This document shows positions 1 to 26,112 of a stretch of 27,438 bases of DNA, in pieces. Each line of letters starts with the position of its first letter. The stretch's first letter is position 1. This DNA is from a virus, in IMG/VR virus record IMGVR_UViG_3300008120_008032, positions 1-27,438 of that record, one strand, 5' to 3'. Both the position numbers and the translations under genes were made by a program. Under the pieces are notes generated by a model. That model did not search any database. It saw only the letters and a program-made list of their open reading frames with translations, and was not told the origin of the DNA.

Positions 1-1055
1 GTGATTAATTTATGGCACTCAAAATGGCGAGGGGTATCTTCATGCTCAGGACACCAACGCCAATCACCTTTATTAAATCTAAACTTAGGGTCATTCCAAC
101 ATGAGTTACAAATTGACTCATCGTATATCCTCACTGTATTTATTGAAAACTCATGCTCTTTATTAGTGAAGTTTGATATTAAGTACACCTTTTTACGCAA
201 GGCATACGATAGCCATGATAATCCACTAGATAAGCCTATGAAAAACTCACTATGGTAAATCGTATTCATAGTGTTTTCCAAAGATTTGTCTACAAATGGA
301 GTTAATCCCTTAAGGTCGCTAGTTTTTTGATACATCATCTCATCTTCCTTAGAAATTTCTAGCACCTTATATCCTTTACCTATTAAGAAATCAATAACAT
401 CTTGCCAATAGTACCACAACTTGCATTGAGAAGTAGAGTATATAGAGATACACACATACTTTTCCTCTATGGGTCTTGTCTTGGGTACAAAATCAATTAT
501 GGGAACAATCTCCCTATGAGGAATATGCAATATGTTGGAAGCACTTTGTTGGAGTGGTATTAAAACTGGGTTTACAGGCTCTCTATTTTTATCCCAATAC
601 CAACCTATCTCGAACATACCAATAAGGTCGCTAACTACCTCACCTCTTTCTACGAACTCTAACTCTGGGTAACTATTCTTAAACAAGAAGTTTTTAAATG
701 TTGAAACTATCACTTTACACTCATAGTGTTTTGCAAATTCAAGGCAATAAGGAATCCAAGCAAGTGTATCACCTAGTGCTTTGCTCTCAAATGAAATAAA
801 AACCCTTTTGCCTTTTATCCTATCAAGGAAGTTGATTTGTTCAATCGTTCTACCCTCGTATCTAATTATGATGGAAATATCCGATAAATATTTTCTATCG
901 AGTCTTGCCCATCCTCCCTTTTTCATTTGTGTTTTAAAGAGAGTTTCCTTCGTTTGCCTATCTAAGAAAGATACTTCGTATTCCCTATTTTTTCCCTCAT
1001 CCCCAGTTAATTCAAAGTATAGACCCTTTACATGATGTAGGATATATGTTAACAT
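1..1055 (-). CDS. TibC/BAHT-like autotransporter-type protein O-heptosyltransferase (3' end cut by window edge)
   Basis: Reading the minus strand from ATG at 1055 gives 351 open codons that run off the left edge. The protein resembles the bacterial autotransporter heptosyltransferase family, which transfers heptose from ADP-heptose to Ser/Thr of beta-solenoid proteins. Family-like blocks are FESKALGDTLAWIPY (residues 89-103), an NPVLIPLQ stretch near 162-169, FFIGLSSGLSWLSYAL (271-286), and a cysteine region CNSCWNDP (316-323), WCPEH (334-338), FEC (345-347). Cys316, 319, 335 and 347 fit the iron-finger cysteines known from TibC; the spacing of the first three looks the same. The start overlaps the stop of the upstream GT4 gene by 7 nt, so it is the distal gene of the operon. 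Finding such an enzyme beside heptose-synthesis genes in a phage-like context is unusual. The family call is from recognisable motifs, not a search. Confidence 0.75.
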   Translation of the reverse strand, partial: MLTYILHHVKGLYFELTGDEGKNREYEVSFLDRQTKETLFKTQMKKGGWARLDRKYLSDISIIIRYEGRTIEQINFLDRIKGKRVFISFESKALGDTLAWIPYCLEFAKHYECKVIVSTFKNFLFKNSYPELEFVERGEVVSDLIGMFEIGWYWDKNREPVNPVLIPLQQSASNILHIPHREIVPIIDFVPKTRPIEEKYVCISIYSTSQCKLWYYWQDVIDFLIGKGYKVLEISKEDEMMYQKTSDLKGLTPFVDKSLENTMNTIYHSEFFIGLSSGLSWLSYALRKKVYLISNFTNKEHEFSINTVRIYDESICNSCWNDPKFRFNKGDWRWCPEHEDTPRHFECHKLI

Positions 1056-2080
1056 TTCTCTGTATTTGTATAAACATTTACATAGCGATTCTTAATCGTT
1101 TCGCTATCTAGATTATGAAATTTAGTTACTGCTTTGTACATATCGTTAAGCCTCTTTGAAACATTCATCCAATCATATTTCTCACGAACAAACATCATGC
1201 GATTTATAGTTTCATCATAACCATCAATAATCTCCTTAACCCTTGAAACGACCTCACTAGTAGTTATTTGATTTAATTTAAATAATCCTACTATTTCCAT
1301 AGAGCCATTGTAGGTAGCAGCCATAGGGATGCAACAACTAGCAGCCTCCATCAAGGTTAAATTTGGATGCCCTGCCTCAAGCATTGAAGGATGTAAGAAA
1401 ATAGTGTGGCTATGATATATCTTTAATAACTCATCTTCACTAGGGTTAGTAGCAACTAGATTTAATTTTTCATAGGATAACAAGTCCTTGTGTATATCAA
1501 AGAACTTTTGATTGGCATCAGTTCCCACTATGGTAATAGGCAAACCTAATTCCCTCGCTGCCTCTACACCAAACCTAAAGCCTTTTCTATCGAAGCCATA
1601 ATCCCCCGCCAATCCATTGTTTGCAACCATAAGCAACCTATGGTTAAGAGGTCTAGTTGTATTAGGTATGAAATATGAGGTATTGACCCCATGAGGTAGG
1701 TAAAAAAGTTTATCCGTTTCATCGAAGTAGTTTAATAAATGTTCAGCGTGAGTTATTGAGAAAATAGATTTTTTCATAGCATCAAGGTTATGCTTAAAGC
1801 AATAACTATCCTTACCATAGTGCTCAGTGTGATGGTCATGTAAAGAAAACACATAGGGTACTCCCTTCCTATGTAATTCTAAGGCTAGATTACCCATGTG
1901 TACATGAACAAAATCATATTGATTTGGCTCGACCTCGCTCAAAAACTTAATATCTACATCGTTACCAAATGTTTCTAGACAATTCCTATACTCTCTAGTA
2001 ATCTTTTCAACAGCACCCCATCCCATTTGACCAATAGGTTTAATAGGTATCATTCCTGTTGCTACTTGACATATTTTCAT
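1049..2080 (-). CDS. GT4-type glycosyltransferase (GT-B fold)
   Basis: This 343-aa protein looks like a family 4 retaining glycosyltransferase. The N-terminal half has the Rossmann-like start MKICQVATGM and a conserved-looking H-D-H-H segment at 81-84. The C-terminal half has PITIVGTDA (181-189) and the donor-binding region HPSMLEAGHPNLTLMEA (230-246), where two glutamates (235, 245) sit where the family's E-x7-E type motif is expected. There is no membrane segment, so a cytosolic enzyme is likely. The start ATG at 2080 overlaps the 901-aa gene's stop by 4 nt (ATGA), which indicates translational coupling. Donor and acceptor cannot be read from the sequence; the neighbouring heptosyltransferases suggest it extends a heptose-containing glycan. 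Confidence 0.8.
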   Translation of the reverse strand: MKICQVATGMIPIKPIGQMGWGAVEKITREYRNCLETFGNDVDIKFLSEVEPNQYDFVHVHMGNLALELHRKGVPYVFSLHDHHTEHYGKDSYCFKHNLDAMKKSIFSITHAEHLLNYFDETDKLFYLPHGVNTSYFIPNTTRPLNHRLLMVANNGLAGDYGFDRKGFRFGVEAARELGLPITIVGTDANQKFFDIHKDLLSYEKLNLVATNPSEDELLKIYHSHTIFLHPSMLEAGHPNLTLMEAASCCIPMAATYNGSMEIVGLFKLNQITTSEVVSRVKEIIDGYDETINRMMFVREKYDWMNVSKRLNDMYKAVTKFHNLDSETIKNRYVNVYTNTEKC

Positions 2081-4782
2081 AAGAACCTTTTATCTTGTTT
2101 ATCAATAAGAGAATATCCATTTACTTGAGAAGTAAGTCTTTGCTTGACAATACCCATCTTATAAGGACTATTCTTAAATATCAAGTTGAAATACATATCA
2201 CTTGCATCCCATTTTTCTTTTCTAAATTTCTCCTTGAGCCACTTTTCAACAAACTTGGGGAACATGATACATTGTAAACCTATAATGTGGTTAGTGATAA
2301 ATAATAGGTTTTGATTAGCGACCTCTTGAATCACAGGAGATTGTAACCATCCATGTTCTAATGTTCTAGTGTCACCAAAACTAAAGTAGCCTATATTATT
2401 ATCATCAATGATTCTACAAGCCTCAAAAACCTTATTGGCAAACTCATCAATAGGAACTTCTATAATGCAATCCCCTTCGCATACTATAAGAAAGTCACAA
2501 TCATTAAATTCACTCAACACTGCGTTTTTGAACGCTTCGTAGCATCCGTAGTGGGGTGGGGTGAGGGCTGTTCCGAGTTTATGTACAGTATTGTCATCAA
2601 AGAGTTCCATTGAAACGCATTGAGGTCGTTGACAGTTGAATTTTGGTGGTAAATCCTTATAGGGTTCGTTAGTGTGGAGGATGTACTCGATTCCGTGTTG
2701 CGTGACCCTTTGGAGCGATTCCCTACTCGCTTTTTCTCTCTCATCGTTTATCGTTGTCTGTATGTGAACTAATTTAACCTTTGGCTTTTTATTGACCCAT
2801 TTAAATGAGCCAGTTCCATTATAGGTGTTTAAGTTCTTTGAATTTAGTGAATATTTTTCATTTTTATATATTGAATCGCCATCAAAGAAATCAATCGATA
2901 TATCAATAGGCTTACCATTGTAGGTAAACTCCTTTCTAAACTCACGACTTTTGCTTATTTGGAAACTACCATTATAAAACTCACCCCCATCTTCCTTCAT
3001 AGTAACTTGCACCTTCCTATCATCTACATTGTAGGTATAGAAATAGAACATATATTGATTGGGGTGCTTATCTATTGGAACAATAGAGTAGTATTCACTA
3101 TTAGAGGCGACCCCCAAACCACTATTAACCAATAGTGTTTCTTGAGGGTTATCTATCAATACTACATCATTAATTCTAGTGTTTATTTTCTTAACTAGGT
3201 AATCCTCTAGGAAATTTTGAGCACCTATGTTATAACACACTCTATTATAATCATCACTTGTCCTTACATCATCAAATAGGTTCAAAAAGAAATCAACATC
3301 AAAGGTCATACCATTCGTTTGAATACCCCTACCAAAAGGTGTTTTCAAACTACCTAAATATGCAGTGTTTGATTGCTCTACACTTTGAAAAGATGCCTCA
3401 ATAGTAGGAGCATCTAATTCGTTTAGGATTACATCGTATGTAGTATAAAAGAAACGCTTGTAACCTAAATCCTTTGCAAACTTAGTTGCTGTAAATAGGT
3501 TTACTAGTACAGTTAGTGATTGGTTGCTATGCTTTAATCCATTTATATTTACATCAACATGGTATTCATTAGTATGGCGATAAAATCTAGTGTAATAAGA
3601 ATGGTGAGTCAAGGGATTATAAGCATCGAATATGTAGTAATCAACCATCCTTTGAATATCAGCATCCACAGGGTAGTGAGAGATGAGAACAATCTTCCTA
3701 CCTAAAATTTTTAAACTTTGTATAGTTTCTTTAGTTAGTTGAACTCTACTTTTTAGATTAGGGTATGTTCCAATTACTATGACCTCCTCCTTGTTTTGCT
3801 CTTTTTTAGGATTAGTGAGTTCAAGTATCATTTTTGCATCCTCATCCACATTACCAGTTAGGTAATTCATTCCTTCAATGCCATCATACCTATTCAAATA
3901 AACATCTAGGTTATACATCAACTTTGGTAAAGTAGGGTATTGTAAAGCCTCTTTAATTACAATAGGGTTTAATTCTTTATTACCCCTATCGCCTTTTGAT
4001 GGAAACAAAAATAGGTCTGCAGCCATCATGAAGTCGTTAATATCACTTCTCTCTCCCCACACTACACAATTATTTAGCCTTTCATTCTCCTCCTTCCAAT
4101 CCATCAATGGTTTCCAATATGATTGAAAGTTCTCTGCTTGATTACCCAAAAAATGAAACTTTAACTTATACTCATGTAATTTATCGCATAGTTCAAAAGC
4201 ATACTTTTGGTTCTTTCTAGGAGTAAATAAGCCTACTATCACTATGTGCTTATAATCATTTTGTAGACCCAATTTCTTTCTATACGCACCCTTATCTTGG
4301 GGTTTTATGTCTACTGGGTATTCTATTACTTCGTAAGGAACATTTAGGTGCAAGTACTTAAGGGCATTGTATGGACTAACAAATACAAATTTGTCAGGCA
4401 TATAAATCTTGCTCAATGGATTAAAACTACTATCATGCGTAGTTTCTATTATTGTATAAGGTCTATCGTTTCTATATACCCAATCGCTTAATTCATTACT
4501 CATGAACATCTCTGGGAACTCCTCCATAGATATAACATCAGGGGAGAAGGAGGTTACTATTTCTTGAAACTCACTCGTTTTATTTTCTCCTAGTGATTTG
4601 AATTTATCATTACCAACTAGTTCAATAATTTTATTCCTTTGAACTACAAACTTCCACGCAACGAATGAGTGCTCAACTACAAGAACATCAAATTCATTCT
4701 TTAGTAGTTCGACTTTATTGGCAGTTACTTGAGGAGCACCACCAGTACTTAAGTGAGGAGTTACTATTAAAAGTTTTTTCAT
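2077..4782 (-). CDS. 901-aa multidomain glycosyltransferase (GT-B domain plus GT-A-like C-terminal domain)
   Basis: This is the largest gene in the window. Residues 1 to about 330 form a GT4-like GT-B domain, with start MKKLLIVTPHLSTGGAPQ, a central HIVIVGLFTPRKNQ segment and DLFLFPSKGDRGNKELNPIVIKEA near the donor site. A middle part from about 333 begins with a second Rossmann-like strand (VIVIGTYPN) and contains FFYTTYDVIL, which looks like a nucleotide-sugar-binding strand. After a probable beta-rich linker, the C-terminal part has DFLIVCEGDC ending at residue 772, in which E-G-D could be the metal-binding DxD-like motif of a GT-A enzyme. It may therefore add two or three sugars in sequence. 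It overlaps both neighbours by 4 nt. The GT-B assignment is firm; the domains after residue 333 are inference. Confidence 0.75.
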   Translation of the reverse strand: MKKLLIVTPHLSTGGAPQVTANKVELLKNEFDVLVVEHSFVAWKFVVQRNKIIELVGNDKFKSLGENKTSEFQEIVTSFSPDVISMEEFPEMFMSNELSDWVYRNDRPYTIIETTHDSSFNPLSKIYMPDKFVFVSPYNALKYLHLNVPYEVIEYPVDIKPQDKGAYRKKLGLQNDYKHIVIVGLFTPRKNQKYAFELCDKLHEYKLKFHFLGNQAENFQSYWKPLMDWKEENERLNNCVVWGERSDINDFMMAADLFLFPSKGDRGNKELNPIVIKEALQYPTLPKLMYNLDVYLNRYDGIEGMNYLTGNVDEDAKMILELTNPKKEQNKEEVIVIGTYPNLKSRVQLTKETIQSLKILGRKIVLISHYPVDADIQRMVDYYIFDAYNPLTHHSYYTRFYRHTNEYHVDVNINGLKHSNQSLTVLVNLFTATKFAKDLGYKRFFYTTYDVILNELDAPTIEASFQSVEQSNTAYLGSLKTPFGRGIQTNGMTFDVDFFLNLFDDVRTSDDYNRVCYNIGAQNFLEDYLVKKINTRINDVVLIDNPQETLLVNSGLGVASNSEYYSIVPIDKHPNQYMFYFYTYNVDDRKVQVTMKEDGGEFYNGSFQISKSREFRKEFTYNGKPIDISIDFFDGDSIYKNEKYSLNSKNLNTYNGTGSFKWVNKKPKVKLVHIQTTINDEREKASRESLQRVTQHGIEYILHTNEPYKDLPPKFNCQRPQCVSMELFDDNTVHKLGTALTPPHYGCYEAFKNAVLSEFNDCDFLIVCEGDCIIEVPIDEFANKVFEACRIIDDNNIGYFSFGDTRTLEHGWLQSPVIQEVANQNLLFITNHIIGLQCIMFPKFVEKWLKEKFRKEKWDASDMYFNLIFKNSPYKMGIVKQRLTSQVNGYSLIDKQDKRFL

Positions 4783-5717
4783 ATCAAAGATTTAATGCTT
4801 TCAAAAACTTGTTCTACACTAGGGTGACATTCAAATGTTGGCTTGTTTTCTAAGCACTTAATAAGAGGAGCAACGCCTTGTATGTTTCCCCATTCTTTAA
4901 TACCATGCTTGGCATTAGACCCACACTCCAATCCACACCCCCCACGAACATATTTATACCTATAATCTTGAGAGCCATTTCTATAAGGAATACGAAACTC
5001 AGGCTTAATAGAAGAACCTAAATGAACTATTGGAGTTTCTGTCGTACCTGCTAAATGCAATAATCCACTATCCATAGTTATAAAACACCTAGCCTTATTA
5101 ATCAAATGCCAACATTGGCTTATAGAGGTCTTGTTCATTAGGTTTAACCCCTTCTCTATATGAAAGTTAAATACAGGCTTTTTTACATTAAAGAAACCAG
5201 TTTCACTTGAATCCTTCCCTATGGAGATAACATTTAAACCTATATCGTTTAACATTTGAGTCAAATTCATCCAATTAATTGATTGCCATGTTCTTGTCGC
5301 CCATGTGCTCACTGGATGAATTAACACATACTCTTTTGGGATTTCAATATTTAGTTCCTCTATGGGTCTATAATAACACTCCATCTCATCTTTAGCCAAC
5401 ATGAATCCTAAATGGATAGCATGGAATTGCCTTATATCAATCATGTTATGCTTGTACTCAATACCCCTTTCATTTTTCTTTCCTACATTATAAAATGAGT
5501 TATGTACTATGTAGTTTTGATTGAAATAACCCATGTCTACGCTACTAAATTTGTAACTAGCCTCCACATAAGGGTTCATCTTAAATACCTCTGCCATTCG
5601 AGAAATGATAGTTACCTTTCTCTCGTAGTAATCATGTAGTTTCTTTATTGTAGGAGTAGCACATATAAGGTCGCCTAACCCATTACAATCTTCTAAGTTT
5701 AATGCTATTGGCTTCAT
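4779..5717 (-). CDS. GT9 family ADP-heptose heptosyltransferase-like protein
   Basis: This 312-aa protein resembles glycosyltransferase family 9, the ADP-heptose:LPS heptosyltransferases. Visible family features are the N-terminal glycine-rich NGLGDLICATPTI (residues 12-24), YVLIHPVSTWATRTW (130-144) in the middle, and the donor-site block TMDSGLLHLAGTTETPIVHLG (around 214-234) with the D-S-G-x-x-H signature at 216-221. The C-terminal region contains a cysteine-rich patch, GGCGLECG near 260. The enzyme should use ADP-heptose, which the 24028-26925 genes appear to make. It is encoded in tight coupling with the sulfotransferase upstream (1-nt overlap) and the 901-aa glycosyltransferase downstream. 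The acceptor, LPS core or a viral protein, is unknown. Confidence 0.8.
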   Translation of the reverse strand: MKPIALNLEDCNGLGDLICATPTIKKLHDYYERKVTIISRMAEVFKMNPYVEASYKFSSVDMGYFNQNYIVHNSFYNVGKKNERGIEYKHNMIDIRQFHAIHLGFMLAKDEMECYYRPIEELNIEIPKEYVLIHPVSTWATRTWQSINWMNLTQMLNDIGLNVISIGKDSSETGFFNVKKPVFNFHIEKGLNLMNKTSISQCWHLINKARCFITMDSGLLHLAGTTETPIVHLGSSIKPEFRIPYRNGSQDYRYKYVRGGCGLECGSNAKHGIKEWGNIQGVAPLIKCLENKPTFECHPSVEQVFESIKSLI

Positions 5718-6535
5718 TAGTATCTAAAATAATCGTAAAACCATTTGTATCTATTAACGACCCATTCACACACACCTTTTCCTAATATATCTTGTGCATC
5801 GGATTGTTTCATCTCTAAAGAGTTTCTAATGATGTGGTCGCCATATCCCATATTTACAGCATCATTCTCATGTGTGATTTGAGGAATAAAATCAAAATTG
5901 TGTTGAAAGTAGGGTATCTCTAAGTAATTATAAATCCTAGCAATTTGTTGCTCTGGGTTTAAACAAAAATCTTCATATTTTACAAAAAGTATTTTATGGT
6001 CATCCTTAGATTGTATAATTGCTTCTAGTCGTTCTATTGCAATTCCTACTGGAATACCTTTTGCCCAAAAATCTATCCTTTTTGGTACGGTGTTATTCTT
6101 TAATTCATGCCACTCAATTAAAGTTTCTTTGTTGGGGTTTTTTCTAAAAGCCTTTTCCATGCTACAATAAACATCTCTTAAATCTCTAATCATACAAATC
6201 ATTTTAGGTTTGTATGCTAAGAAATGCTCGACCCATCTTATGTAAAAAGACCATGAACGCCCTTTATCTAAAAAGTATTTCTTATCGGTAAGCACATTCG
6301 CATAAGCGTGTATACCAGCATTGCATAGAGCAGAAAATGCTTTGTCGTGTAACTCAGGCGTAAGGCTAAATTTGTAATCATCTACATTAGTGAAATTATG
6401 TTTTGCACCATAAAGCAATTCCATTAATCCACTAGTGGGAGTAGCATAAATATCAGGGTTTTGACCCATAATATTTTGTAAAAGGGTTGACCCGCTTCTA
6501 GGAAGGCTAGATTGAAAAAATATCTTTTCTACCAT
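5717..6535 (-). CDS. Sulfotransferase family protein (PAPS-dependent)
   Basis: This 272-aa protein has the layout of PAPS-dependent sulfotransferases. The 5'-phosphosulfate-binding loop is SLPRSGSTLLQ at residues 10-20, directly after the first beta strand. The 3'-phosphate-binding strand and helix are MICMIRDLRDVYCSM at 112-126, with Arg117 and Ser125 in the expected places, and KILFVKYEDF lies further on. No membrane segment or signal is visible, so it is probably cytosolic. It sits among glycosyltransferases. The PAPS it needs could come from the APS kinase and ATP-sulfurylase-like genes transcribed divergently at 7491-8302. A sugar on the glycan built by this operon is the likely target, but a protein tyrosine or a lipid cannot be ruled out. 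Confidence 0.85.
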   Translation of the reverse strand: MVEKIFFQSSLPRSGSTLLQNIMGQNPDIYATPTSGLMELLYGAKHNFTNVDDYKFSLTPELHDKAFSALCNAGIHAYANVLTDKKYFLDKGRSWSFYIRWVEHFLAYKPKMICMIRDLRDVYCSMEKAFRKNPNKETLIEWHELKNNTVPKRIDFWAKGIPVGIAIERLEAIIQSKDDHKILFVKYEDFCLNPEQQIARIYNYLEIPYFQHNFDFIPQITHENDAVNMGYGDHIIRNSLEMKQSDAQDILGKGVCEWVVNRYKWFYDYFRY

Positions 6536-6536
6536 A

Positions 6537-7037
6537 TCAATAGTTTATATAATAACCATACTTATCATCCCCTACAAGTAGTTTCATCATAGGGTATCTT
6601 TCCAAAAATATCTCTGGCGTAAGGTCGGGTTGTAAATGTGTTTCGTGAACATTATCCATATAAGTACCTTGCTCATAGTTATAGGGAACAGCAATCAAAC
6701 AAAGAATATCTAGGTCTTGAATCCTCTTGATTACTTGTTGGGCATCCTTCACACTTAAATGCTCAAGTACATCACCCATGATTATGTAATCATAATCTCT
6801 AAAATCAAACTCACGAATATCTCCTAAAATAACTTTGTTATACTTACTATTTAAATCAAATTGTTCTATGTAGTTTGCAAATATTTCAATCGCATCCATA
6901 TTGGGAAAATGCTCCTTTAGTAAATGCGAGTATGTACCACAACCTGGACCAACATCCAAAATGCGAATACGCTTTACTAGATTCTTTAAGAAATGTTCTT
7001 TTACTTCCTCTTTGTAAAGGGTGTAACTATAAGGCAT
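6537..7037 (-). CDS. Class I SAM-dependent methyltransferase
   Basis: This 166-aa protein is a short class I methyltransferase. Motif I is IRILDVGPGCGTYSHLL (residues 24-40), the glycine-rich SAM loop. The acidic end of strand 2 is MDAIEIF, and the motif IV region is YDYIIMGDVLEHL, like many small-molecule and sugar methyltransferases. It is shorter than the usual 200-250 residues but keeps the core strands. It lies 1 nt upstream of the sulfotransferase gene and 3 nt downstream of the DUF6165 gene, inside the glycan-transfer operon. O-methylation of a sugar in the same glycan is the simplest role. The substrate cannot be read from the sequence. Confidence 0.8.
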   Translation of the reverse strand: MPYSYTLYKEEVKEHFLKNLVKRIRILDVGPGCGTYSHLLKEHFPNMDAIEIFANYIEQFDLNSKYNKVILGDIREFDFRDYDYIIMGDVLEHLSVKDAQQVIKRIQDLDILCLIAVPYNYEQGTYMDNVHETHLQPDLTPEIFLERYPMMKLLVGDDKYGYYINY

Positions 7038-7040
7038 AGG

Positions 7041-7424
7041 TTAGTATTTTTTATGTGACTTTTCCTCTACTATTGATGAACCATACTTCTCATTAATTTT
7101 TCTCTTAATCTTTGCTCTCAAATCATTTTTCTTATACACACTACGAGCAAGTTCAATGAAAGAGGAATCAAACTTTTTCTTTCTTTCACATTCTCTTTTA
7201 CCATCTTCTATGTGCCACAACTCCTCATTAACATTAGATAGTTCTTTGAAGTATTTTGTCTTATGGTAATTGGGGTCAATTTTCTTAGCAATCTTAACCA
7301 ACATAGTCCACTCCTTATGAATGTTGATATGTTTAGATGGCTCTTGGATATACTTTAACTTGTTCTCTAGTATAGAGATTTTGTCAAATAATTCACCTAT
7401 GGAAACAGGAATCCTAATATTCAT
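7041..7424 (-). CDS. DUF6165-like protein
   Basis: This 127-aa protein starts with IPVSIGELFDKISILENKLKYI, closely resembling the DUF6165 pattern (I-P-V-S-x-G-E-L-x-D-K-I-x-I-L-E-x-K). The family is often encoded in lipopolysaccharide or glycan gene clusters, and its function is unknown to me. The rest is helical and rich in Lys and Glu, with a conserved-looking LWHIED segment. It is the first gene of the minus-strand glycan operon, preceded by a promoter-like sequence in the 7425-7490 divergent region. The family call is by memory of the signature and is moderately safe; no biochemical role is proposed. Confidence 0.7.
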   Translation of the reverse strand: MNIRIPVSIGELFDKISILENKLKYIQEPSKHINIHKEWTMLVKIAKKIDPNYHKTKYFKELSNVNEELWHIEDGKRECERKKKFDSSFIELARSVYKKNDLRAKIKRKINEKYGSSIVEEKSHKKY

Positions 7425-7446
7425 TGTAATTATCTCTAAAAGTCTT

Positions 7447-7454
7447 TAATTTTG
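7447..7454 (+). promoter_or_regulatory. Bacteroidota-type -7 box for the sulfate-activation operon
   Basis: TAATTTTG matches the Bacteroidota -7 consensus TAnnTTTG. An ATTG at 7423-7426, 20 nt upstream, is close to the -33 TTTG. Transcription would start near 7461, about 30 nt before the APS kinase ATG at 7491. Confidence 0.5.
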
Positions 7455-7460
7455 ATGAGG

Positions 7461-7468
7461 CTAAGATA
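7461..7468 (-). promoter_or_regulatory. Candidate -7 box for the minus-strand glycan operon
   Basis: On the minus strand TATCTTAG (one mismatch to TAnnTTTG) lies 20 nt downstream of an ATTG. It would start transcription about 25 nt before the DUF6165 ATG at 7424. The match is imperfect, so this is tentative. Confidence 0.3.
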
Positions 7469-7490
7469 GTGAAAATTAAAATTCGTTTCA

Positions 7491-7934
7491 ATGATAATTT
7501 GGCTTTTTGGACAACCTTGTAGTGGAAAAACTACAATCGCTCAAGTATTAAAAGACAAGAGAGAAATTATTGGGCGACCTCATTTGATAGATGGTGATGA
7601 GTTTAGGGAGATATTCCAAAACAAAAAGTATGGGAGAGAAGGTAGGATTGATAATATAAGAAAAGCAGTAATTGTTGCCAAATACATGGAGCATTGTGGA
7701 TTTACTGTAATTTGTTCTTTCGTTACCCCTTATAAAAGCATGAGGGATGAGATAAGAGAAATCTTAGGGGATGTTAGGATGATATACTTAGACTATCAAG
7801 GGGAGAGGGGTAGGGAAAACTACCATGTAGAGGATTTCGATATACCCTCCTCACAAGAGGAAAATTTCTTACATTTAAGAACTAGCGACCTTACGCTAGA
7901 TTCCTGTATTTCTAAAATTAAATCGATACTATGA
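7491..7934 (+). CDS. cysC: Adenylylsulfate (APS) kinase
   Basis: This 147-aa protein would phosphorylate APS at the 3' position to make PAPS, the universal sulfuryl donor. The P-loop is GQPCSGKTT (residues 7-15). LIDGDEFREIF corresponds to the CysC LDGDxxR block, GREGRIDNIRKAVIVAKYM to the REENIRRxxEVAK helix, and CSFVTPYKSMRDEIR to the SPxxxxR region. It is shorter than typical CysC (about 180-200 aa), with a trimmed C-terminus. The next gene starts 4 nt before its stop (ATGA). Together with the nucleotidyltransferase at 7931 and the sulfotransferase at 5717-6535, it completes a sulfate-to-sulfated-product route. Confidence 0.85.
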   Translation: MIIWLFGQPCSGKTTIAQVLKDKREIIGRPHLIDGDEFREIFQNKKYGREGRIDNIRKAVIVAKYMEHCGFTVICSFVTPYKSMRDEIREILGDVRMIYLDYQGERGRENYHVEDFDIPSSQEENFLHLRTSDLTLDSCISKIKSIL

Positions 7935-8302
7935 GTTTAAAGAAACACGCACTATTCATTGGGAGATGGCAAAACCTTCACGAAGGGCATTTATGGTGTT
8001 TTAACCAAAAATTAAAAGAGGGATTACCCATCATAATTGCTATTAGGGATGTAGAGGTCGATGAAAATAATCCAAGAACTGCTAAAGAGGTTAAATTTAT
8101 ACTAGACCTTCATTTTCAAGAACTTATAGAAATAGGAAAGGTAAAAATCATGATTATACCCGATATTGAAGGGGTATATTATGGTCGTTCTGTTGGATAT
8201 AAAGTGGAGGAGTTAGTACCACCTAAAGAAATAGCAGAGATTAGTGGAACTAAGATTAGACAACAACTTAAGGAACAAGAGGACAAAAAAACCAATATAT
8301 GA
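7931..8302 (+). CDS. Short HxGH-type nucleotidyltransferase, candidate ATP sulfurylase
   Basis: This 123-aa protein is a minimal nucleotidylyltransferase-fold enzyme. FIGRWQNLHEGH (residues 9-20) carries the HxGH motif at 17-20, and EISGTKIRQQL (103-113) resembles the ISGTxxR motif at the end of the catalytic domain of Sat-type ATP sulfurylases. It is far shorter than classical ATP sulfurylase (about 400 aa or more), so only the catalytic core is present. The position between APS kinase and DUF2061, with 4-nt overlaps on both sides, argues for APS synthesis. A cytidylyl- or pantetheine-phosphate-type activity would be the alternative. The fold is confident; the substrate is inferred from context. 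Confidence 0.7.
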   Translation: MSLKKHALFIGRWQNLHEGHLWCFNQKLKEGLPIIIAIRDVEVDENNPRTAKEVKFILDLHFQELIEIGKVKIMIIPDIEGVYYGRSVGYKVEELVPPKEIAEISGTKIRQQLKEQEDKKTNI

Positions 8303-8514
8303 TAGTTGAAAAAAAGAGGCACATAGCCAAAACTATAAGTTATAGGGTCATAAGTTCTGGCATTGGATTCATTGTTATGTATTTCGCCACAGGAAGTATA
8401 AAAGCAGGAGCAATATTCTCGATTGCTGAACTTGTCTATAAACCCCTTCAATACTATATCCATGAGCGAGTATGGTATAGGTATATAAAATTTGGATTAA
8501 AGAAAGAACAGTAA
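8299..8514 (+). CDS. DUF2061 two-helix membrane protein
   Basis: This 71-aa protein matches the DUF2061 pattern: an N-terminal KTISYRVISSGIGFIVMYFATG helix, then AGAIFSIAELVYKPLQYYIHERVW. The K-T-x-S-x-R and Y-x-H-E-R-x-W signatures are both visible. The family often occurs beside, or fused to, sulfate-activation enzymes. Two membrane helices are likely, with both ends basic. It starts 4 nt before the end of the nucleotidyltransferase gene, so it is the third gene of a coupled cassette. A role in sulfate entry or in anchoring the activation enzymes has been guessed for such proteins, but I do not know of proof. Confidence 0.8.
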   Translation: MIVEKKRHIAKTISYRVISSGIGFIVMYFATGSIKAGAIFSIAELVYKPLQYYIHERVWYRYIKFGLKKEQ

Positions 8515-8535
8515 TGTTTTTTTGATTAAAATACC

Positions 8536-8543
8536 TATTTTTG
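8536..8543 (+). promoter_or_regulatory. Bacteroidota-type -7 box for the 8579-13704 operon
   Basis: TATTTTTG fits TAnnTTTG and lies 35 nt upstream of the first ATG of the operon. A clear -33 TTTG at the usual distance is not present (a T-run lies near 8516-8524). The gap 8515-8578 holds nothing else that I recognise. Confidence 0.45.
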
Positions 8544-8578
8544 ATATGGTTATGCGACTTCGTGCTAAATGAAAATTT

Positions 8579-8869
8579 ATGGCTGCAGAAGTTGCGGATT
8601 TATTGTATATAAAGCAAATGCTTGTCCAACTATCCGAAAAACAGGATAGCATGAATGACAGGCTTAATGACATTGATACGCACCTAACTAAAATTTCCAC
8701 AACAGTTATTGGAGATGAAAAGTTTGGTCACAAGGGATTGGTATCTCAAGTTGCCAAACTAAATAAGTATGTTGACAACGACAAGATTAGGAACGCTAAA
8801 ATTGTTGGAGGTCTTGGCGTAGTCGGTATGCTATGGACAATATTTTTAAAATGGTTTGCAAGTAAATAA
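8579..8869 (+). CDS. Coiled-coil protein with C-terminal membrane anchor (XhlA-like)
   Basis: This 96-aa protein has an amphipathic helical N-terminal part (residues 5 to about 45) with heptad-like spacing (MLVQLSEKQDSMNDRLNDID). A short middle part follows, then one membrane helix at about 74-92 (KIVGGLGVVGMLWTIFLKWF). This layout resembles XhlA-type lysis accessory proteins and other tail-anchored phage proteins. It is the first gene after a promoter-like box and heads a series of tethered proteins. It could be a holin accessory or a minor membrane protein of the virion. No catalytic motif is visible. The match is by architecture only. Confidence 0.6.
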   Translation: MAAEVADLLYIKQMLVQLSEKQDSMNDRLNDIDTHLTKISTTVIGDEKFGHKGLVSQVAKLNKYVDNDKIRNAKIVGGLGVVGMLWTIFLKWFASK

Positions 8870-8874: not shown

Positions 8875-9234
8875 ATGAAAAATCAAGGAGTAAAAATAGC
8901 ATTAATAATTTTTGGAGTACTTGCATTAGGGGCAGGTGCTTATTTTATATTCAAACCTAAGAAAGATGATTTACTAGATGACAATGATGACAAAGATGAT
9001 AAGGATGACAAAGATGATGATGATAAGAAATTTGAAAAGTATATAATTGCTACACAAAAGGGCAATCTAAATTTGAGAGATATTCCCTCTACAAGTGGCA
9101 ACATAAAACAATCATTACCAAAAGGAACTGAAATACTTGCTAGACCTAGCGAAAAGGAAGGATGGCATGAAGTAAGTGATGATGGTAAAAAAATAGTTGG
9201 ATTTGTTTCATCTCAATACATAACAAAAAAATAA
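8875..9234 (+). CDS. Membrane-anchored SH3b-domain protein
   Basis: This 119-aa protein has three parts. A membrane helix spans residues 7-26 (KIALIIFGVLALGAGAYFIF). A highly acidic Asp/Lys linker spans about 30-53. A bacterial SH3 domain spans about 55-118, with the typical LNLRDIPST (start of the fold), a LPKGTEIL turn, GWHEVS and the closing GFVSSQYI. Bacterial SH3 domains usually bind cell-wall peptides or glycans, so the protein would be fixed in a membrane with its domain reaching toward peptidoglycan. It has no catalytic residues. It begins 5 nt after the preceding gene, and the next gene follows within 3 nt. Confidence 0.8.
   Translation: MKNQGVKIALIIFGVLALGAGAYFIFKPKKDDLLDDNDDKDDKDDKDDDDKKFEKYIIATQKGNLNLRDIPSTSGNIKQSLPKGTEILARPSEKEGWHEVSDDGKKIVGFVSSQYITKK
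8971..9027 (+). repeat. GATGACAAA-type coding repeat (acidic linker)
   Basis: Imperfect 6-9-bp repeats of GATGAC and AAAGAT encode an Asp/Lys tract between the membrane helix and the SH3b domain of the 8875 gene. The repeat stays in frame and probably acts as a flexible, charged spacer. Confidence 0.6.
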
Positions 9235-9237
9235 AAA

Positions 9238-9441
9238 ATGAATAACGGTTTAAAATGGGCATTGGTTAGCCTACCAATTTTAGTTGGGGGATTCATTGTA
9301 TATAGAACTCTTACTAAAGAACAAAGAGAAGCGAAAAAAAAGGCAAAAGAACAAGGAGGTAATAACACACCTATAATCACTAGTGGTGGTGGTAGCGGTA
9401 GTGGTAGTGGTAGTGGTAGTGGTGGGAAGTCGTGGTTCTAA
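9238..9441 (+). CDS. Membrane-anchored N-terminal part of a frameshifted peptidoglycan-binding protein
   Basis: This 67-aa reading frame has one membrane helix (residues about 4-22, LKWALVSLPILVGGFIVY), a basic Glu/Lys stretch, and a Gly/Ser tail encoded by GGTAGT repeats. It then stops at 9439-9441. The downstream peptidoglycan-binding domain continues at once in the next frame and lacks its own credible start. A +1 shift within about 9421-9441 would join them into one protein of about 230 aa with the same plan as its neighbours: anchor, linker, wall-binding domain. This could be programmed frameshifting, a real inactivating mutation, or a sequencing error. Confidence 0.65.
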   Translation: MNNGLKWALVSLPILVGGFIVYRTLTKEQREAKKKAKEQGGNNTPIITSGGGSGSGSGSGSGGKSWF

Positions 9442-9934
9442 GGTAAAGGAATTACAACAAGCAATAGTTGATGATGGACAACCTAATGTAGTTTCTTTAT
9501 TGGGTAAAAATCCTACTGATGGTCAATTTGGAACAGGTACAGAGAAGGCAGTAAAAGCACTTTTAGGTAAAACTAAAATAGATTCTCAAGCAGACATTGA
9601 TAAAATAAAAGGTCTTAAAGCAACAAGAAGTTCTCAACAAAATACTATAAACAAGCAAATTGAGAGAATTGCACTTGCAAATAGATTAATTGCAACATTT
9701 AATAGTAATCCATCCGCATACTATTTCTATTCCGTTAGAAGGCATAGTGGAACTGTGGGAAATGTGACCTCTGATGGTAGACAAGTTAGAAGTGCTACTA
9801 AAGTTTGGCAAGATGGAGAAAAGGTAGGGTTCACTAGATATGCAAAATTCAAAGTGGATAGAGTAGGTAATATCACAGCGACAGATGGAGATAAGTTTGC
9901 ATTTTTTAACCCAGAATGGGTGGAAGTAAAATAA
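9383..9934 (+). CDS. Peptidoglycan-binding-domain part, in +1 frame to the 9238 gene
   Basis: This frame is open from 9383, but its first 14 or so codons are only the Gly/Ser repeat read out of frame as valines, so the GTG there is not a believable start. The meaningful part begins at about 9426 (GSRGSKVKELQQAI). It shows a PG_binding_1-like pattern (LQQAIVDDG, then DGQFGTGTEKAVKALLG), a helical part with AnRL-type repeats, and a C-terminal beta-rich region ending FFNPEWVEV. The domain should bind peptidoglycan. It probably forms one protein with the 9238 membrane anchor after a +1 shift. Confidence 0.6.
   Translation: MVVVAVVVVVVVVVGSRGSKVKELQQAIVDDGQPNVVSLLGKNPTDGQFGTGTEKAVKALLGKTKIDSQADIDKIKGLKATRSSQQNTINKQIERIALANRLIATFNSNPSAYYFYSVRRHSGTVGNVTSDGRQVRSATKVWQDGEKVGFTRYAKFKVDRVGNITATDGDKFAFFNPEWVEVK
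9391..9420 (+). repeat. Five tandem GGTAGY hexamers
   Basis: GGTAGC is followed by four GGTAGT units, then GGTGGG. The hexamer encodes Gly-Ser. Gain or loss of whole units keeps the frame, so hexamer slippage alone cannot explain or repair the nearby frameshift. Confidence 0.85.
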
Positions 9935-9944
9935 AAATATAGTC

Positions 9945-10409
9945 ATGAAAAAAGATAATACACTTTTATGGGTTGGATTAGGTAGTGTCCTCGTTGTAGG
10001 GGTCGTTCTCTTTTTTGTTTTAAGGAATCCAAATAAAAAGGGGAAGGACAAAAATGCAAAAGGTGACAAGCCTGAAATTGATGTTTTAGGAGAAGGTGAT
10101 ATAACCGCAGAAGGGAATAACATCGTTGTAGGGGATAAAAAAATAAAAATTGACCCTAATCAATTTAAGATTGATTTTGAGAAAGTAAAGCAAATCCTTG
10201 CTCAACCTGTATCTAAAGAAAAGAAGTATGAGATACTAAAGCAATCTGGTATTTCGGATAAAACGCTCACACTAGTTAAAAATGCGGATGCCGCGGAGCA
10301 ACAAAAGAAATTAAGCCTTGCTATAAAGAATATTCAACAAAAAGAAAGAGATGCAGAGTTTGAAAGACTTACAGGTATTAAGCCTCGTAAGTTCAATCTA
10401 GGTGTGTAA
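9945..10409 (+). CDS. N-terminally membrane-anchored protein of unknown function
   Basis: This 154-aa protein has a membrane helix at residues 7-26 (LLWVGLGSVLVVGVVLFFVL) followed by a basic linker (NPNKKGKDKNAKGDK). A short beta-rich segment comes next (EGDITAEGNNIVVGDKKIKIDP). The helical C-terminal half (about 75-140) has the EKKYEILKQSGISDKTLTLVKNAD pattern, reminiscent of a small helical bundle. I do not recognise a family. The plan matches its neighbours: a single anchor, a charged linker and a soluble domain. A virion membrane protein or a host-envelope protein are both possible. Confidence 0.65.
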   Translation: MKKDNTLLWVGLGSVLVVGVVLFFVLRNPNKKGKDKNAKGDKPEIDVLGEGDITAEGNNIVVGDKKIKIDPNQFKIDFEKVKQILAQPVSKEKKYEILKQSGISDKTLTLVKNADAAEQQKKLSLAIKNIQQKERDAEFERLTGIKPRKFNLGV

Positions 10410-10422
10410 GGTAAAAAAGAAG

Positions 10423-10890
10423 ATGATAGTAATAAGGGCGGTGAATATCCTCAAAATAGAGGATTATATAAAGTGTGCATGGAAAGGAGATAGTGAGTTA
10501 GATAAGTTCTATGACAGGTCACTACAAAGGAGAACCCTAGAGGGGATGGTGAAAGATACGAGTCGAAAGATTCGTGATATGATGGAACTTGATGAACAAC
10601 TATCCCTACTAGGAATCGAATTTGAAAGCAAATCGATTGGGTTTATCGTTTTAAGCGAGAAACTATCGATGCTTTATAGTTTTGGTATTAATGTAGAGTA
10701 TAGAAAAAAGGATATACTTAGTTCTATATTTAACTATATTAAGGCAAAACTAAAATATGAATTTTATAGTGTTATGTATGAATACAATACGAGGGCGATT
10801 AAATGGCTATGTAGTTGTGGCTTAGAAATTGACCCCTTGTTAAAACCATCACACAATACTATTTACTTAAAATATGATATATGCCAGTAA
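10423..10890 (+). CDS. GNAT-like acyltransferase-fold protein
   Basis: This 155-aa protein resembles small phage GNAT-fold proteins. The strand FESKSIGFIVLSEKLSMLYSFGINVEYRKKDI fits beta4 and beta5 with the acetyl-CoA-binding turn that follows (the expected R/Q-x-x-G-x-G/A is degenerate here). A helix then ends in NTRAIKWLCSCGLEI, the usual C-terminal N-x-x-A-x-x-W/L-x-x-x-G-F motif. An upstream in-frame GTG at 10402 overlaps the previous gene. I chose ATG at 10423 because it follows a purine-rich AAAAAAGAAG and leaves a normal gap. It is the only clearly soluble protein in this part of the operon. The substrate is unknown. Confidence 0.6.
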   Translation: MIVIRAVNILKIEDYIKCAWKGDSELDKFYDRSLQRRTLEGMVKDTSRKIRDMMELDEQLSLLGIEFESKSIGFIVLSEKLSMLYSFGINVEYRKKDILSSIFNYIKAKLKYEFYSVMYEYNTRAIKWLCSCGLEIDPLLKPSHNTIYLKYDICQ

Positions 10891-11210
10891 GTGCATCATT
10901 AGCAGTAGTAAGTGCGGGTACTCAAATAGCGAGTACCGTAGCGGGTATTAAGGACATGAATAAGCGTAGGGATATAGAAATGGCTATATCTCGACTTAGT
11001 GCTGACGACCAAAAGAAGTTAAATCAAAAAATCGCTAGGGCACAAAACCAAAACGAGAGGCTTAACATACTTGCGGAGGAAATCACTAAAGTTCAAATTG
11101 AGCAACTCAAAGAAAAAAGAAAAAAGGAAACCACCACTGCTATCATAATCATTGGAGGTTCTCTAGTTTTACTAGTTGCTGTATTTTTATTAACTCGTTC
11201 AAAAGATTAA
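10881..11210 (+). CDS. Coiled-coil protein with C-terminal membrane anchor
   Basis: This 109-aa protein begins with a small-residue-rich, alanine/valine segment (residues 3-23). It continues with a long charged helix (about 24-80, DIEMAISRLSADDQKKLNQKIARAQ and onward) and ends in one strong membrane helix (about 87-104, AIIIIGGSLVLLVAVFLL) plus RSKD. It overlaps the GNAT-like gene by 10 nt. The tail-anchored form is the mirror image of the N-terminally anchored neighbours. No enzyme motif is visible and I do not recognise a family. Confidence 0.65.
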   Translation: MPVSASLAVVSAGTQIASTVAGIKDMNKRRDIEMAISRLSADDQKKLNQKIARAQNQNERLNILAEEITKVQIEQLKEKRKKETTTAIIIIGGSLVLLVAVFLLTRSKD

Positions 11211-11211
11211 G

Positions 11212-11565
11212 ATGGGCAATGAAACATTAACAAGAGGTGAGGGTCAAATAGTTCTTGATGATATTAAAAAAGAAATCAAGAGATTAGATGCTTTAATTAA
11301 AGAAAAGAAAATAGTTGGTGCAACAGTAGAAATACTAGATGAGAAAAAAGATTTACTACAAAAGCAAATCGATGCTATCTTAAAAAAGGGTGGTTTAATA
11401 ACAGAGGAGGACTACAATAAATCATACAACCTAATTAGAGGGCAAGAGGAAAAGGAATTGCTTGACCTTAGTAAAAAGGCTAAGAGAAGGATTATAATGT
11501 TTGCCCTAATTGGATTAGGTATTATTGGTGCTTATTATTTACTCGCAAAAAAAGAAACAAAATGA
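11212..11565 (+). CDS. Helical protein with C-terminal membrane anchor
   Basis: This 117-aa protein consists of charged helices (residues 5-55, rich in Lys/Glu/Asp with Leu/Ile heptads), an LITEEDYNKSYNLIR segment that resembles a SHOCT-like short helix-loop, and a membrane helix near 94-110 (IIMFALIGLGIIGAYYLLA). It starts 1 nt after the preceding gene, and its stop overlaps the next start by 4 nt. A short oligomerisation domain hung on a membrane helix is a reasonable reading. Function is unknown. Confidence 0.65.
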   Translation: MGNETLTRGEGQIVLDDIKKEIKRLDALIKEKKIVGATVEILDEKKDLLQKQIDAILKKGGLITEEDYNKSYNLIRGQEEKELLDLSKKAKRRIIMFALIGLGIIGAYYLLAKKETK

Positions 11566-11906
11566 ATGATAACATAAAGAAGGCGATTGTTGTAATTGGA
11601 GGAGGTGTTCTCCTTTTTTGGCTTGTAAAGGATTTTGGAATCATGGGTAAGGAGAAGAAAAAAACTAAGAAAGAAGATGAGCCAAACATCGACCCAAAAG
11701 AATTAAAGAATAAAAGAAAGGCTAACGCATTTGTGGCAGTTAAGGCTTACATAGATGCCATCAATAATAGAGAGAGCGAGAAAGCACTTGATGAACTCAA
11801 TCGTGAATTTGCAAAAGAATTGAAAGTGAGGGTTTATCGTAGAAGCAAGGATGGTGTTATTGTAGCAACTGACCTACAAGGAAATGTTATTTTGGAGAAT
11901 AAATAA
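11562..11906 (+). CDS. N-terminally membrane-anchored protein of unknown function
   Basis: This 114-aa protein has a membrane helix at residues 7-23 (AIVVIGGGVLLFWLVKDF), then a very basic and acidic linker (KEKKKTKKEDEPNIDPKELKNKRK). A small soluble domain (about 52-113) follows, ending in two beta strands (RVYRRSKDGVIVATDLQGNVILEN). The start overlaps the previous gene by 4 nt, and the stop shares one base with the next ATG (TAATG), so expression is coupled. No family is recognised. Confidence 0.65.
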   Translation: MNDNIKKAIVVIGGGVLLFWLVKDFGIMGKEKKKTKKEDEPNIDPKELKNKRKANAFVAVKAYIDAINNRESEKALDELNREFAKELKVRVYRRSKDGVIVATDLQGNVILENK

Positions 11907-12550
11907 TGAAAAGGATTCCTACTTGGGTATATGTGTGGGTTGCTACCGCAATAGGAGTGGGTCTTTTTCTTGCTTTTAGAAATAAGCCTAAAAAACCTAA
12001 GAAAGTTTTATTCGTAGGAGATTCTATTACTGCTATTGAGTTTAATGGTAAGCCAACAGGAACTTATCCCTTAATCATAAGGAAGCAAAACCCTAGTTTA
12101 ATTATTGATGTACTAGCGGTGGGTGGGAAAACAACAAAATGGATGCTTGAAAACCTACCTAGCAAAATTGGTAATGGTTATGATAGGGTATACATATATG
12201 GTGGAGTCAATGATGCTTTTAGCAACGCCAATCTAGATGGGGTAGTGGCAAATGTTCAAAAGATGGTTGATATTGTAAAGAGTAATGGTGCAACCCCCTA
12301 TGTAGTTCTAGGATATGAGCCTAATGGATTCATGGAGTATAAAAAAATGCCTACTACTAGGTATGTGGGAACGAAAGAAGGCTATATACCATTAATCGCT
12401 AGATACAAGGAATTGCAGTCAAAATACTTAAATGTAAAGGGTGCTATCTTTGTACCTAAATTTCAATTAGGGTCTAACACTAGTGATGGAACACATCCAA
12501 ATGGTAAAGGACAATCAATTATTGCTAACGATATAATGAATACATTTTAA
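11906..12550 (+). CDS. Membrane-anchored SGNH/GDSL-type hydrolase
   Basis: This 214-aa protein has an N-terminal membrane helix (residues 7-24), a short basic linker (NKPKKPKK) and an SGNH hydrolase domain. Block I is VLFVGDSIT (34-42, nucleophile Ser40). The block II glycine is in AVGGKTTKWM (Gly73/74). Block III is YIYGGVNDAF (97-105, Asn102), and block V is SDGTHPNGKG (193-202, Asp194 and His197). All catalytic positions are present. The family cleaves esters, including O-acetyl groups on peptidoglycan or polysaccharide. Anchored here beside wall-binding proteins, it may de-acetylate or de-esterify a host envelope glycan. Substrate is inferred only. Confidence 0.85.
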   Translation: MKRIPTWVYVWVATAIGVGLFLAFRNKPKKPKKVLFVGDSITAIEFNGKPTGTYPLIIRKQNPSLIIDVLAVGGKTTKWMLENLPSKIGNGYDRVYIYGGVNDAFSNANLDGVVANVQKMVDIVKSNGATPYVVLGYEPNGFMEYKKMPTTRYVGTKEGYIPLIARYKELQSKYLNVKGAIFVPKFQLGSNTSDGTHPNGKGQSIIANDIMNTF

Positions 12551-17555: not shown

Positions 17556-18266
17556 TTAACTTAATTGCTTATATGTCAAACTATTTTTGTCAAAATATTG
17601 ATTTACAATTTCTCTATTCTCCTTTGTGTCTACATAGTAAATACAATCTGTCTTATAAGCAATAAAATCATCACCAAGTAACTTTTTAACCTTTGCCATG
17701 TGTTTGAAGCAAGTGAATCGAATCAACTTGTAAACTCTCTGCAAATCCACATCATCCCCAAAGGTTACTGTTGAATTACTAATTTTCCCACCATTTATTT
17801 GCCTAAATGTTCTACCCATACCTAGCGTAGAGAGAGAAGCGAGTCTTACATTCTTGAACTTCTTTGGCAATCCTCGTTTATAAGTAGCAAGGGTAATTAT
17901 TCCTATATTATAAGCAATACGCCAATACGCATGGTTTAAGTCTGTCGCACAAACCTTAACATTAGAATTAGGAACATCATCATTATACAATATCGACCTT
18001 TCTTCTCTAGGTAATTTTATAGTTGGGTTCTTTCTCAAAAAATCTTGAGCCTCCTTACGAACCTTACCAAATAAAAACAAACCTGCACGAAAAACTCCAT
18101 AATCTTTTTTACCTATCGATGGATAGATAAATGATTTGTTTCCCCAAATAATCTCTGTGCTAAAAGTACCACGCTTGATGTAGGCATCCTCTTTCAATTC
18201 GCCCAACATTTCTAGCATAGGTTTGTCGCTTCTACCAAAGCAGACTTTTCTAGTTTTAATTTTCAT
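17556..18266 (-). CDS. Minimal polymerase-palm-like protein (candidate family B-type DNA polymerase remnant)
   Basis: This 236-aa protein carries three motifs in the order and spacing of family B palm domains. CATDLNHAYWRIA has Asp109, like motif A D-x-x-S-L-Y-P. KNVRLASLSTLGMGR (138-152) looks like a motif B helix with Lys and Arg. DDFIAYKTDCIYYVDT (199-214) has Asp207, like motif C Y-x-D-T-D-S, here K-T-D-C. There is no room for an exonuclease or for full thumb and fingers, as family B enzymes are usually over 500 aa. The gene overlaps the basic 318-aa gene by 11 nt, a pairing that recalls terminal protein plus protein-primed polymerase. The assignment is by motif only and could be wrong. 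Confidence 0.5.
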   Translation of the reverse strand: MKIKTRKVCFGRSDKPMLEMLGELKEDAYIKRGTFSTEIIWGNKSFIYPSIGKKDYGVFRAGLFLFGKVRKEAQDFLRKNPTIKLPREERSILYNDDVPNSNVKVCATDLNHAYWRIAYNIGIITLATYKRGLPKKFKNVRLASLSTLGMGRTFRQINGGKISNSTVTFGDDVDLQRVYKLIRFTCFKHMAKVKKLLGDDFIAYKTDCIYYVDTKENREIVNQYFDKNSLTYKQLS

Positions 18267-23366: not shown

Positions 23367-23375
23367 AATCATTTT

Positions 23376-24798: not shown

Positions 24799-24800
24799 GC

Positions 24801-25280: not shown

Positions 25281-25281
25281 A

Positions 25282-26105: not shown

Positions 26106-26112
26106 AGTTTAT

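Follow-up and report, generated by a model that had tools for sequence, protein, structure and literature searches.

We analyzed a 27,438-base virus contig from IMG/VR (IMGVR_UViG_3300008120_008032, without terminal repeats; this whole stretch of DNA is called the window below) and found a gene set that probably represents a phage-encoded sulfation cassette. It comprises a GT9-family glycosyltransferase, a sulfotransferase (SULF), an adenosine 5'-phosphosulfate (APS) kinase homologue (KIN), a small nucleotidyltransferase (NT) and a small membrane protein of the DUF2061 family. The genes present, their homology and motifs, and the order in which they recur were observed directly; from these we infer the following route. 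NT would use ATP to adenylylate sulfate, giving APS, as a non-orthologous stand-in for ATP sulfurylase (Sat) with the fold of nicotinamide mononucleotide (NMN) adenylyltransferases (NMNATs), a step suggested by context. KIN would phosphorylate APS at the 3'-OH to 3'-phosphoadenosine 5'-phosphosulfate (PAPS), as homology and motifs strongly support, and DUF2061 may assist sulfate activation or supply. SULF, likewise on the basis of homology and motifs, would take the sulfuryl group of PAPS and pass it to an acceptor. The likeliest acceptor would be a sugar that the GT9-family enzyme and the other linked glycosyltransferases build, either on part of the virion or at the surface of the host. The most likely purpose would be to remodel the glycans exposed on virions or on infected cells. 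In the literature searched, phage-directed sulfation is not described as a pathway, and we find the cassette again at dozens of separate viral loci.

Gene layout and recurrence of the cassette

The cassette and its adjoining genes in the window are as follows (aa, amino acids):
7491..7934, plus strand: KIN, APS-kinase homologue, 147 aa, shortened lid (PF01583 3.5e-18, 66.5 bits, cut-off 21.1)
7931..8302, plus strand: NT, HxGH nucleotidyltransferase, 123 aa (phrog_10255 6.9e-10; NMNAT-like profile 6.9e-8, below cut-off)
8299..8514, plus strand: DUF2061 small membrane protein (PF09834 8.3e-15, 55.4 bits, cut-off 23.1)
5717..6535, minus strand: SULF, PAPS-type sulfotransferase, 272 aa (PF13469 4.2e-17, 63.6 bits, cut-off 27; PF00685 1.5e-15, over cut-off)
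4779..5717, minus strand: GT9-family glycosyltransferase, of the heptosyltransferase family (PF01075 1.7e-16, 60.8 bits, cut-off 22)
2077..4782, minus strand: 901-aa protein with an N-terminal glycosyltransferase group 1 domain (PF00534 7.3e-9)
1049..2080, minus strand: 343-aa probable glycosyltransferase, weak match (PF13692 4.2e-5, below cut-off; phrog_33732 glycosyltransferase 2.3e-5)
6537..7037, minus strand: S-adenosylmethionine-dependent methyltransferase (PF13649 7.1e-8)
7041..7424, minus strand: DUF6165 protein (PF19662 9e-12)

On the plus strand, the KIN/NT and NT/DUF2061 open reading frames (ORFs) overlap by 4 bp each. The minus-strand order is DUF6165, methyltransferase, SULF, GT9, 901-aa glycosyltransferase and 343-aa probable glycosyltransferase, with the SULF ORF sharing one base with the downstream GT9 ORF. 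An earlier note on this DNA had placed the KIN, NT, DUF2061 and SULF ORFs at these positions and strands, as we find them. Its calls of an APS kinase and a sulfotransferase from motifs, and of DUF2061 at 8299-8514, agree with Pfam, where KIN (CysC-type, PF01583), SULF (PF13469) and DUF2061 (PF09834) all pass the gathering scores. The methyltransferase that it listed in the SULF operon is a single gene, accompanied by that for the DUF6165 protein. Glycosyltransferases do stand beside SULF, as it had claimed, with the correction that Pfam sees three (GT9, the 901-aa protein and, weakly, the 343-aa protein) and not four.

Relatives were collected by locus scans seeded with peptide patterns, taking the best 80 loci per scan; phage homologues of KIN number at least 416 in IMG/VR. 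The resulting KIN-seeded (62), NT (114) and SULF (106) locus sets were de-duplicated by identical sequence only; many contigs end within the cassette region, and co-occurrence percentages are descriptive. NT accompanied KIN in all 62 distinct KIN-seeded phage loci, DUF2061 in 55 and SULF in 44. Among the 114 distinct NT loci, KIN was present in 106, DUF2061 in 104 and SULF in 68; KIN-NT-DUF2061 recurs in about a hundred distinct viral loci. Overlapping frames were the rule, with median gaps over the 114 loci of -8 bp for KIN-NT and -4 bp for NT-DUF2061. Seeding with SULF gave KIN, NT and DUF2061 within ~5 kb in 27 of the best 80 loci and at least KIN in 46/80; NT occurred on 15 of 45 whole contigs. 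SULF and KIN abutted in 44 of 73 adjacent pairs, and all four genes were found in 29 loci whose SULF proteins were <75% identical. A GT9-like gene was present in 86 of the 106 distinct SULF loci, lying ≤20 bp from SULF in 58 of 65 adjacent pairs, and the commonest order was GT9-like, SULF, KIN, NT, DUF2061. In Stenotrophomonas and Clavibacter phages, KIN and NT form a single fused protein. Animal PAPS synthases have the same order, kinase and then adenylyltransferase.

The window GT9 protein matched two members of the GT9-like family by phmmer at ~1e-5, and one member matched PF01075 over the cut-off; a PDB profile search with the family found nothing. An hhalign value of 3e-119 for this family was not used, being circular, as the template alignment held family members, and L225:8189-9133 was excluded from the family. 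DUF6165 also recurs beside the cassette in other phages (2/113 neighbor proteins match).

Other arrangements were also seen. Contigs L011, L014, L016 and L034 carry NT and DUF2061 without KIN, between AP/UV-endonuclease-like and peptide-deformylase-like genes; L011, L014 and L034 have no APS kinase anywhere on the contig, nor does the related L020. In L086-L100 (eight distinct loci), a divergent APS-kinase-like gene is encoded immediately upstream of SULF but on the other strand, with no NT or DUF2061 nearby. In large phages, two unannotated families with sulfotransferase-like P-loop motifs, A3 and A4 (L017:8570-9358, L018:5375-5989 and relatives), stand beside the triad and have carbamoyltransferase-, tryptophan-halogenase- and 2-oxoglutarate (2OG)-oxygenase-like genes as neighbors. 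Profile searches of Pfam and PDB left A3 and A4 without a firm placement, giving one weak Sulfotransfer_1 match and one heparan-sulfate 2-O-sulfotransferase match at 8e-4.

Candidate enzymes and the role of DUF2061

The best solved-structure relatives of KIN are APS kinases (1.9e-18). Aligned to two genuine CysC proteins, KIN keeps the P-loop GQPCSGKTT, DGDEFR (DGDxxR), GRIDN (GRxxN) and TPY (PY), and a YExP-like element lies near its C-terminal end. Against the equivalog TIGR00455, it scores 62.1 bits versus a cut-off of 138.7. On this sequence evidence, we file KIN as an APS-kinase homologue whose equivalence to CysC is unproven. For SULF, >100 family members turned up in viral contigs. Its PAPS-binding motifs are conserved, namely the SxPRxxST loop (S10-x-P-R-x-x-S-T) of the 5'-phosphosulfate-binding site and R117 with S125 of the 3'-phosphate-binding site, and S10, R13, S16, T17, R117 and S125 are invariant in 66 aligned sequences.

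The best independent evidence that the viral KIN-NT-DUF2061 triad concerns sulfate activation comes from cellular DUF2061 genes. The domain was present in 22 of 198 sampled Bacteroidota genomes, where it occurs in cys operons (CysH-CysD-CysN). Across 20 such neighborhoods, PAPS-reductase/CysD-family genes adjoined it in 13 and CysN in 12, with representatives confirmed by Pfam. One Bacteroidota genome has two tandem DUF2061 domains (L181:5039-5458) between a CysQ-like phosphatase and CysC-CysD-CysN, and another encodes a 240-aa fusion of DUF2061 to APS kinase (CysC) in a Sat-CysC operon (L182:7265-7987; 9.2e-18 and 6.2e-49). DUF2061 is little mentioned in the literature searched and is assigned no function there; the cassette points to a role for it. 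This cellular link, together with operons conserved beyond the window, lends good support to the earlier proposal of a viral PAPS supply and sulfotransferase coupled to glycosyltransferases. A more speculative idea of the same note is that sulfated surface sugars could shield virions or change adsorption.

The NT ORF is not a chance one, because its counterparts at 61 further loci, viral or virus-like, are 41-58% identical to it, and H17, R39, N47, P48, G85, R86, Y90, S105, T107 and R110 are invariant across the 62 sequences. In PHROG 10255 a kinase and a nucleotidyltransferase are fused, and its first half matches KIN and its second half NT (~5e-10 to 7e-10). NT itself matches CTP_transf_like in Pfam at 15.3 bits versus a cut-off of 21. 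Viral-contig relatives have the motifs GRWQxxHxGH, RDVEVDENNP, IIPDIESVNYGRGVGY and SxTxIR in common. HxGH and SxTxxR are invariant or nearly so in the 62 sequences and the predicted fold is Rossmann-like, as in the HxGH superfamily. Outside viruses, 84,980 genomes of bacteria and archaea were scanned with a sequence pattern and gave a single match, on a 9-kb contig of a metagenome-assembled genome; KIN and DUF2061 lie on this contig as well, and it could be of viral origin. By these scans, the NT family is almost confined to viruses.

Two AlphaFold models of NT agree (pLDDT 85.5 and 88.7, AlphaFold2), with the last 25 residues weak. Their nearest solved folds are archaeal NMNATs (TM-score ~0.5, E ~7e-4), followed by phosphopantetheine adenylyltransferases, and ATP sulfurylase was not among the first 50 structural matches. 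All 62 family members match NMNAT profiles. NT scores 32.3 bits against the NadM model PRK01153 (cut-off 127) and 24.4 against TIGR01527 (cut-off 181); the same NMNAT model is matched by proteins in 137 of 148 Bacteroidota genomes at up to 42 bits, and most of those extracted look like CoaD. NT and NMNAT align as two HMMER blocks, separated by ~32 residues in the NMNAT structure 4yp7 versus ~7 in NT. In the NMNAT MtNMNAT, this inter-block region, between the DIE and GY motifs, carries NMN contacts. Compared with 4yp7, NT lacks a complete acceptor-binding segment there.

The earlier note had proposed the protein at 7931 as a mini ATP-sulfurylase-like enzyme and suggested a structural and profile check against Sat. 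As a statement of homology, this was not borne out: the AlphaFold fold search and hhalign revealed no specific relation to Sat, and the nearest relatives by both profile and fold are NMNATs. Window NT has no match to PF01747 (Sat-type ATP sulfurylase) at E 0.1; 19 of the 62 relatives match it weakly (best 3.5e-4). The hhalign comparison with Sat gave a probability of 16 over 21 columns, confined to the SGTxxR neighborhood. The Sat motifs QxRNPxHRxH and GRDHAG do not occur in NT, which has GRWQNLHEGH and YGRSVGY in their place. A shrunken Sat was rejected as homology, since only the superfamily HxGH and SGTxxR motifs are common to both and the NMNAT fold is nearer. By profile and modeled fold, NT is an HxGH nucleotidyltransferase with a remodeled and shortened acceptor region, nearest to archaeal NMNAT and not to Sat, because the inter-block segment is lost and only the SGTxxR region aligns to Sat. 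Its context suggests that it may do the job of Sat by non-orthologous replacement.

We lean, by a modest degree, towards a broader reading in which NT would be a third, virus-born class of ATP sulfurylase (110-140 aa, NMNAT-related), partnered by DUF2061 and an APS kinase of reduced length on a mobile cassette for sulfated glycan, and in which most phage cysC genes of the KIN subfamily serve sulfation. Should NT indeed activate sulfate, a core reaction of sulfur metabolism would have a new class of enzyme, in a protein about one-third the usual size, and the phage cysC genes that are commonly tallied as part of the sulfur cycle would need rereading.

Acceptor and alternative readings

A sugar acceptor is suggested because the GT9-like gene abuts SULF, GT9 is a heptosyltransferase family, and the window holds both a glycosyltransferase operon and heptose-type donor genes. 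The latter form an ADP-heptose-like set:
24028-24798, minus strand: HldE-kinase-like protein (TIGR02198 7.9e-36, below equivalog cut-off)
25282-25692, minus strand: HldE-adenylyltransferase-like protein (TIGR02199 2.8e-27, below equivalog cut-off)
25692-26105, minus strand: cupin
26113-26985, minus strand: HldD-like epimerase (TIGR02197 1.5e-49, below equivalog cut-off)

For the epimerase, an internal ATG near 26925 is the probable start codon. The genes at 24028-26985 are probably sugar-donor genes, and it is possible that they supply the donor for the GT9 enzyme, which would tie them to sulfation. A chorismate-mutase-like protein is encoded within the set at 24801-25091.

Several observations weigh against a sulfation cassette as proposed. 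NT is not homologous to Sat beyond superfamily motifs, its closest profiles being NMNATs, and the lid segment KGLYKKARAGEI..FTG, which in CysC shuts over the bound substrate, is shortened throughout the viral KIN family. NT and DUF2061 occur without any APS kinase on contigs G205, G206, G209 and G220, which are fragments; the KIN-NT fusion records DLP_6 and Clavibacter 33 have no Sulfotransfer_3 match; and more than one-third of the best 80 SULF-seeded loci lack KIN and NT locally. Such exceptional phages might draw on the PAPS or CysC of their host, rely on sulfotransferases of other families or put the products to another use. Finally, in tailed phages, some cassettes are flanked by tail sheath, tail fiber and 2OG-oxygenase genes, making a protein acceptor possible.

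That last arrangement favors an alternative in which PAPS serves the sulfation of a virion protein, such as tyrosine sulfation of tail or capsid proteins, instead of a sugar. SULF is also faintly similar to tyrosylprotein sulfotransferases (E 0.026). We consider protein sulfation unlikely, as the closest and commonest SULF neighbor is the GT9-like glycosyltransferase, usually abutting, and in the window the two genes overlap.

A role as helper of assimilatory sulfate reduction, in which phage cysC raises host PAPS for cysteine synthesis, is less probable again. Phage cysC genes have been described in this way in three reports (PMC10914622, PMC9529941, PMC8190135), among them 62 cysC genes of freshwater phages read as assimilatory sulfate reduction (PMC10914622), and DUF2061 is found in reductive cys operons of Bacteroidota. 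However, none of the 62 KIN-seeded phage loci had CysD, CysH (PAPS reductase), CysN or Sat near KIN, as an assimilatory module would, whereas a sulfotransferase, which would consume PAPS for sulfation, was present in 44. Phage 'cysC' genes of the KIN subfamily therefore seem better read as a sulfation supply than as assimilatory sulfate reduction.

The profile matches and archaeal NMNAT fold of NT could also suggest NAD+ salvage, with NT as an NMNAT and KIN as a nucleoside kinase rebuilding NAD+ for the phage. NadR pairs an NMNAT with a kinase in this manner. The score of 32 versus 127 bits is, however, at a level reached by other Bacteroidota nucleotidyltransferases, NT is short of ~25 residues between the two NMNAT-matching blocks, KIN resembles APS kinase and not ribosylnicotinamide kinase, and the partners of both are DUF2061 and a sulfotransferase. 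On cut-offs, lost segment and gene context, NT was rejected as a true NMNAT, and we regard NAD+ salvage as very improbable. We give still less credence to KIN and NT making another 3'-phosphoadenylyl compound (adenylyl-X, with X other than sulfate) as a signal or in anti-defense, next to a separate enzyme of sulfotransferase fold: the NT acceptor region is remodeled, unlike any known family, and in some phages no sulfotransferase was detected alongside KIN-NT, but DUF2061 ties the set to cellular sulfate activation and SULF so often abuts KIN.

Source contig and known systems

The IMG/VR record is probably an incomplete fragment, because end repeats are absent and no terminase, portal or major capsid gene was recognized among the window genes. 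It does carry RecT, an exonuclease-like protein and several lysis enzymes. A nucleotide-level search of positions 5700-8600 against 50,697 phage records gave zero matches, direct scans for relatives of the window proteins at 12553, 13030 and 21704 found none, and promoter and terminator scans returned no more sites than shuffled sequences. Related viruses were reached through a scan with the protein encoded at 17556-18266. Five such contigs (L208-L212) have RecT, exonuclease and structural genes in common with the window; in L208, NT and DUF2061 are adjoined by a partial KIN, and L212 carries SULF. The protein at 17556-18266 (minus strand, 236 aa) has no Pfam match, is 42-47% conserved in these five viruses and, judged by eye, has motifs resembling a DNA polymerase palm domain. 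About ten small proteins, each with one terminal hydrophobic stretch, are encoded at 8875-12550 and 21704-24038. Among them are a lysozyme, a phosphatase-like protein and a GDSL hydrolase, and from visual inspection the group may consist of virion or lysis proteins anchored in a membrane.

A literature search that covered neither bioRxiv preprints nor most subscription papers found no work joining a phage sulfotransferase with KIN, NT and DUF2061. The nearest viral precedent is the Sat/APS-kinase and sulfotransferase set of Moumouvirus australiensis, whose glycan cluster contains Ma457 (SAT/APS kinase) and Ma461 (sulfotransferase), as predicted in 2022 (PMC10117803). There, too, genes within a glycosylation cluster are predicted to supply PAPS and let a virus sulfate its own glycans (PMC10117803). 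Moumouvirus differs in being a eukaryotic giant virus with an orthodox bifunctional Sat-CysC enzyme, and it has no repeated compact operon with NT and DUF2061. Phage sulfotransferases are known from cyanophages and other marine phages (S-SKS1, S-SRM01; OM43 phages, PMC10580990) and are 24-30% identical to SULF over most of its length, but they are listed singly with no PAPS supply of their own described (PMC10580990). The phage cysC auxiliary metabolic genes resemble KIN as APS-kinase genes in phages, whereas those reports take the assimilatory view, and the passages found in them on cysC do not connect it with NT, DUF2061 or a sulfotransferase (PMC10914622, PMC9529941, PMC8190135).

Among cellular systems, the sulfated-capsule cluster of Cobetia marina similarly groups PAPS genes, a sulfotransferase and glycosyltransferases for a sulfated polysaccharide, but it is chromosomal, activates sulfate by CysD and CysN/CysC and has CysQ and a sulfate permease (PMC11766843). 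Bifunctional PAPS synthases (human PAPSS, Aquifex Sat/CysC) likewise pair or fuse a kinase and an adenylyltransferase, whereas in the phages the adenylyltransferase half has 123 aa, is NMNAT-like and shares no more than superfamily membership with Sat. For NT itself, the closest counterpart in fold and profile is MtNMNAT (1m8k/1ej2), with which it has GRxQxxHxGH and SGTxxR motifs in common. NT is ~45-60 residues shorter, with most of the pre-GY segment gone, and has conserved motifs of its own, RDVEVDENNP and YGRGVGY.

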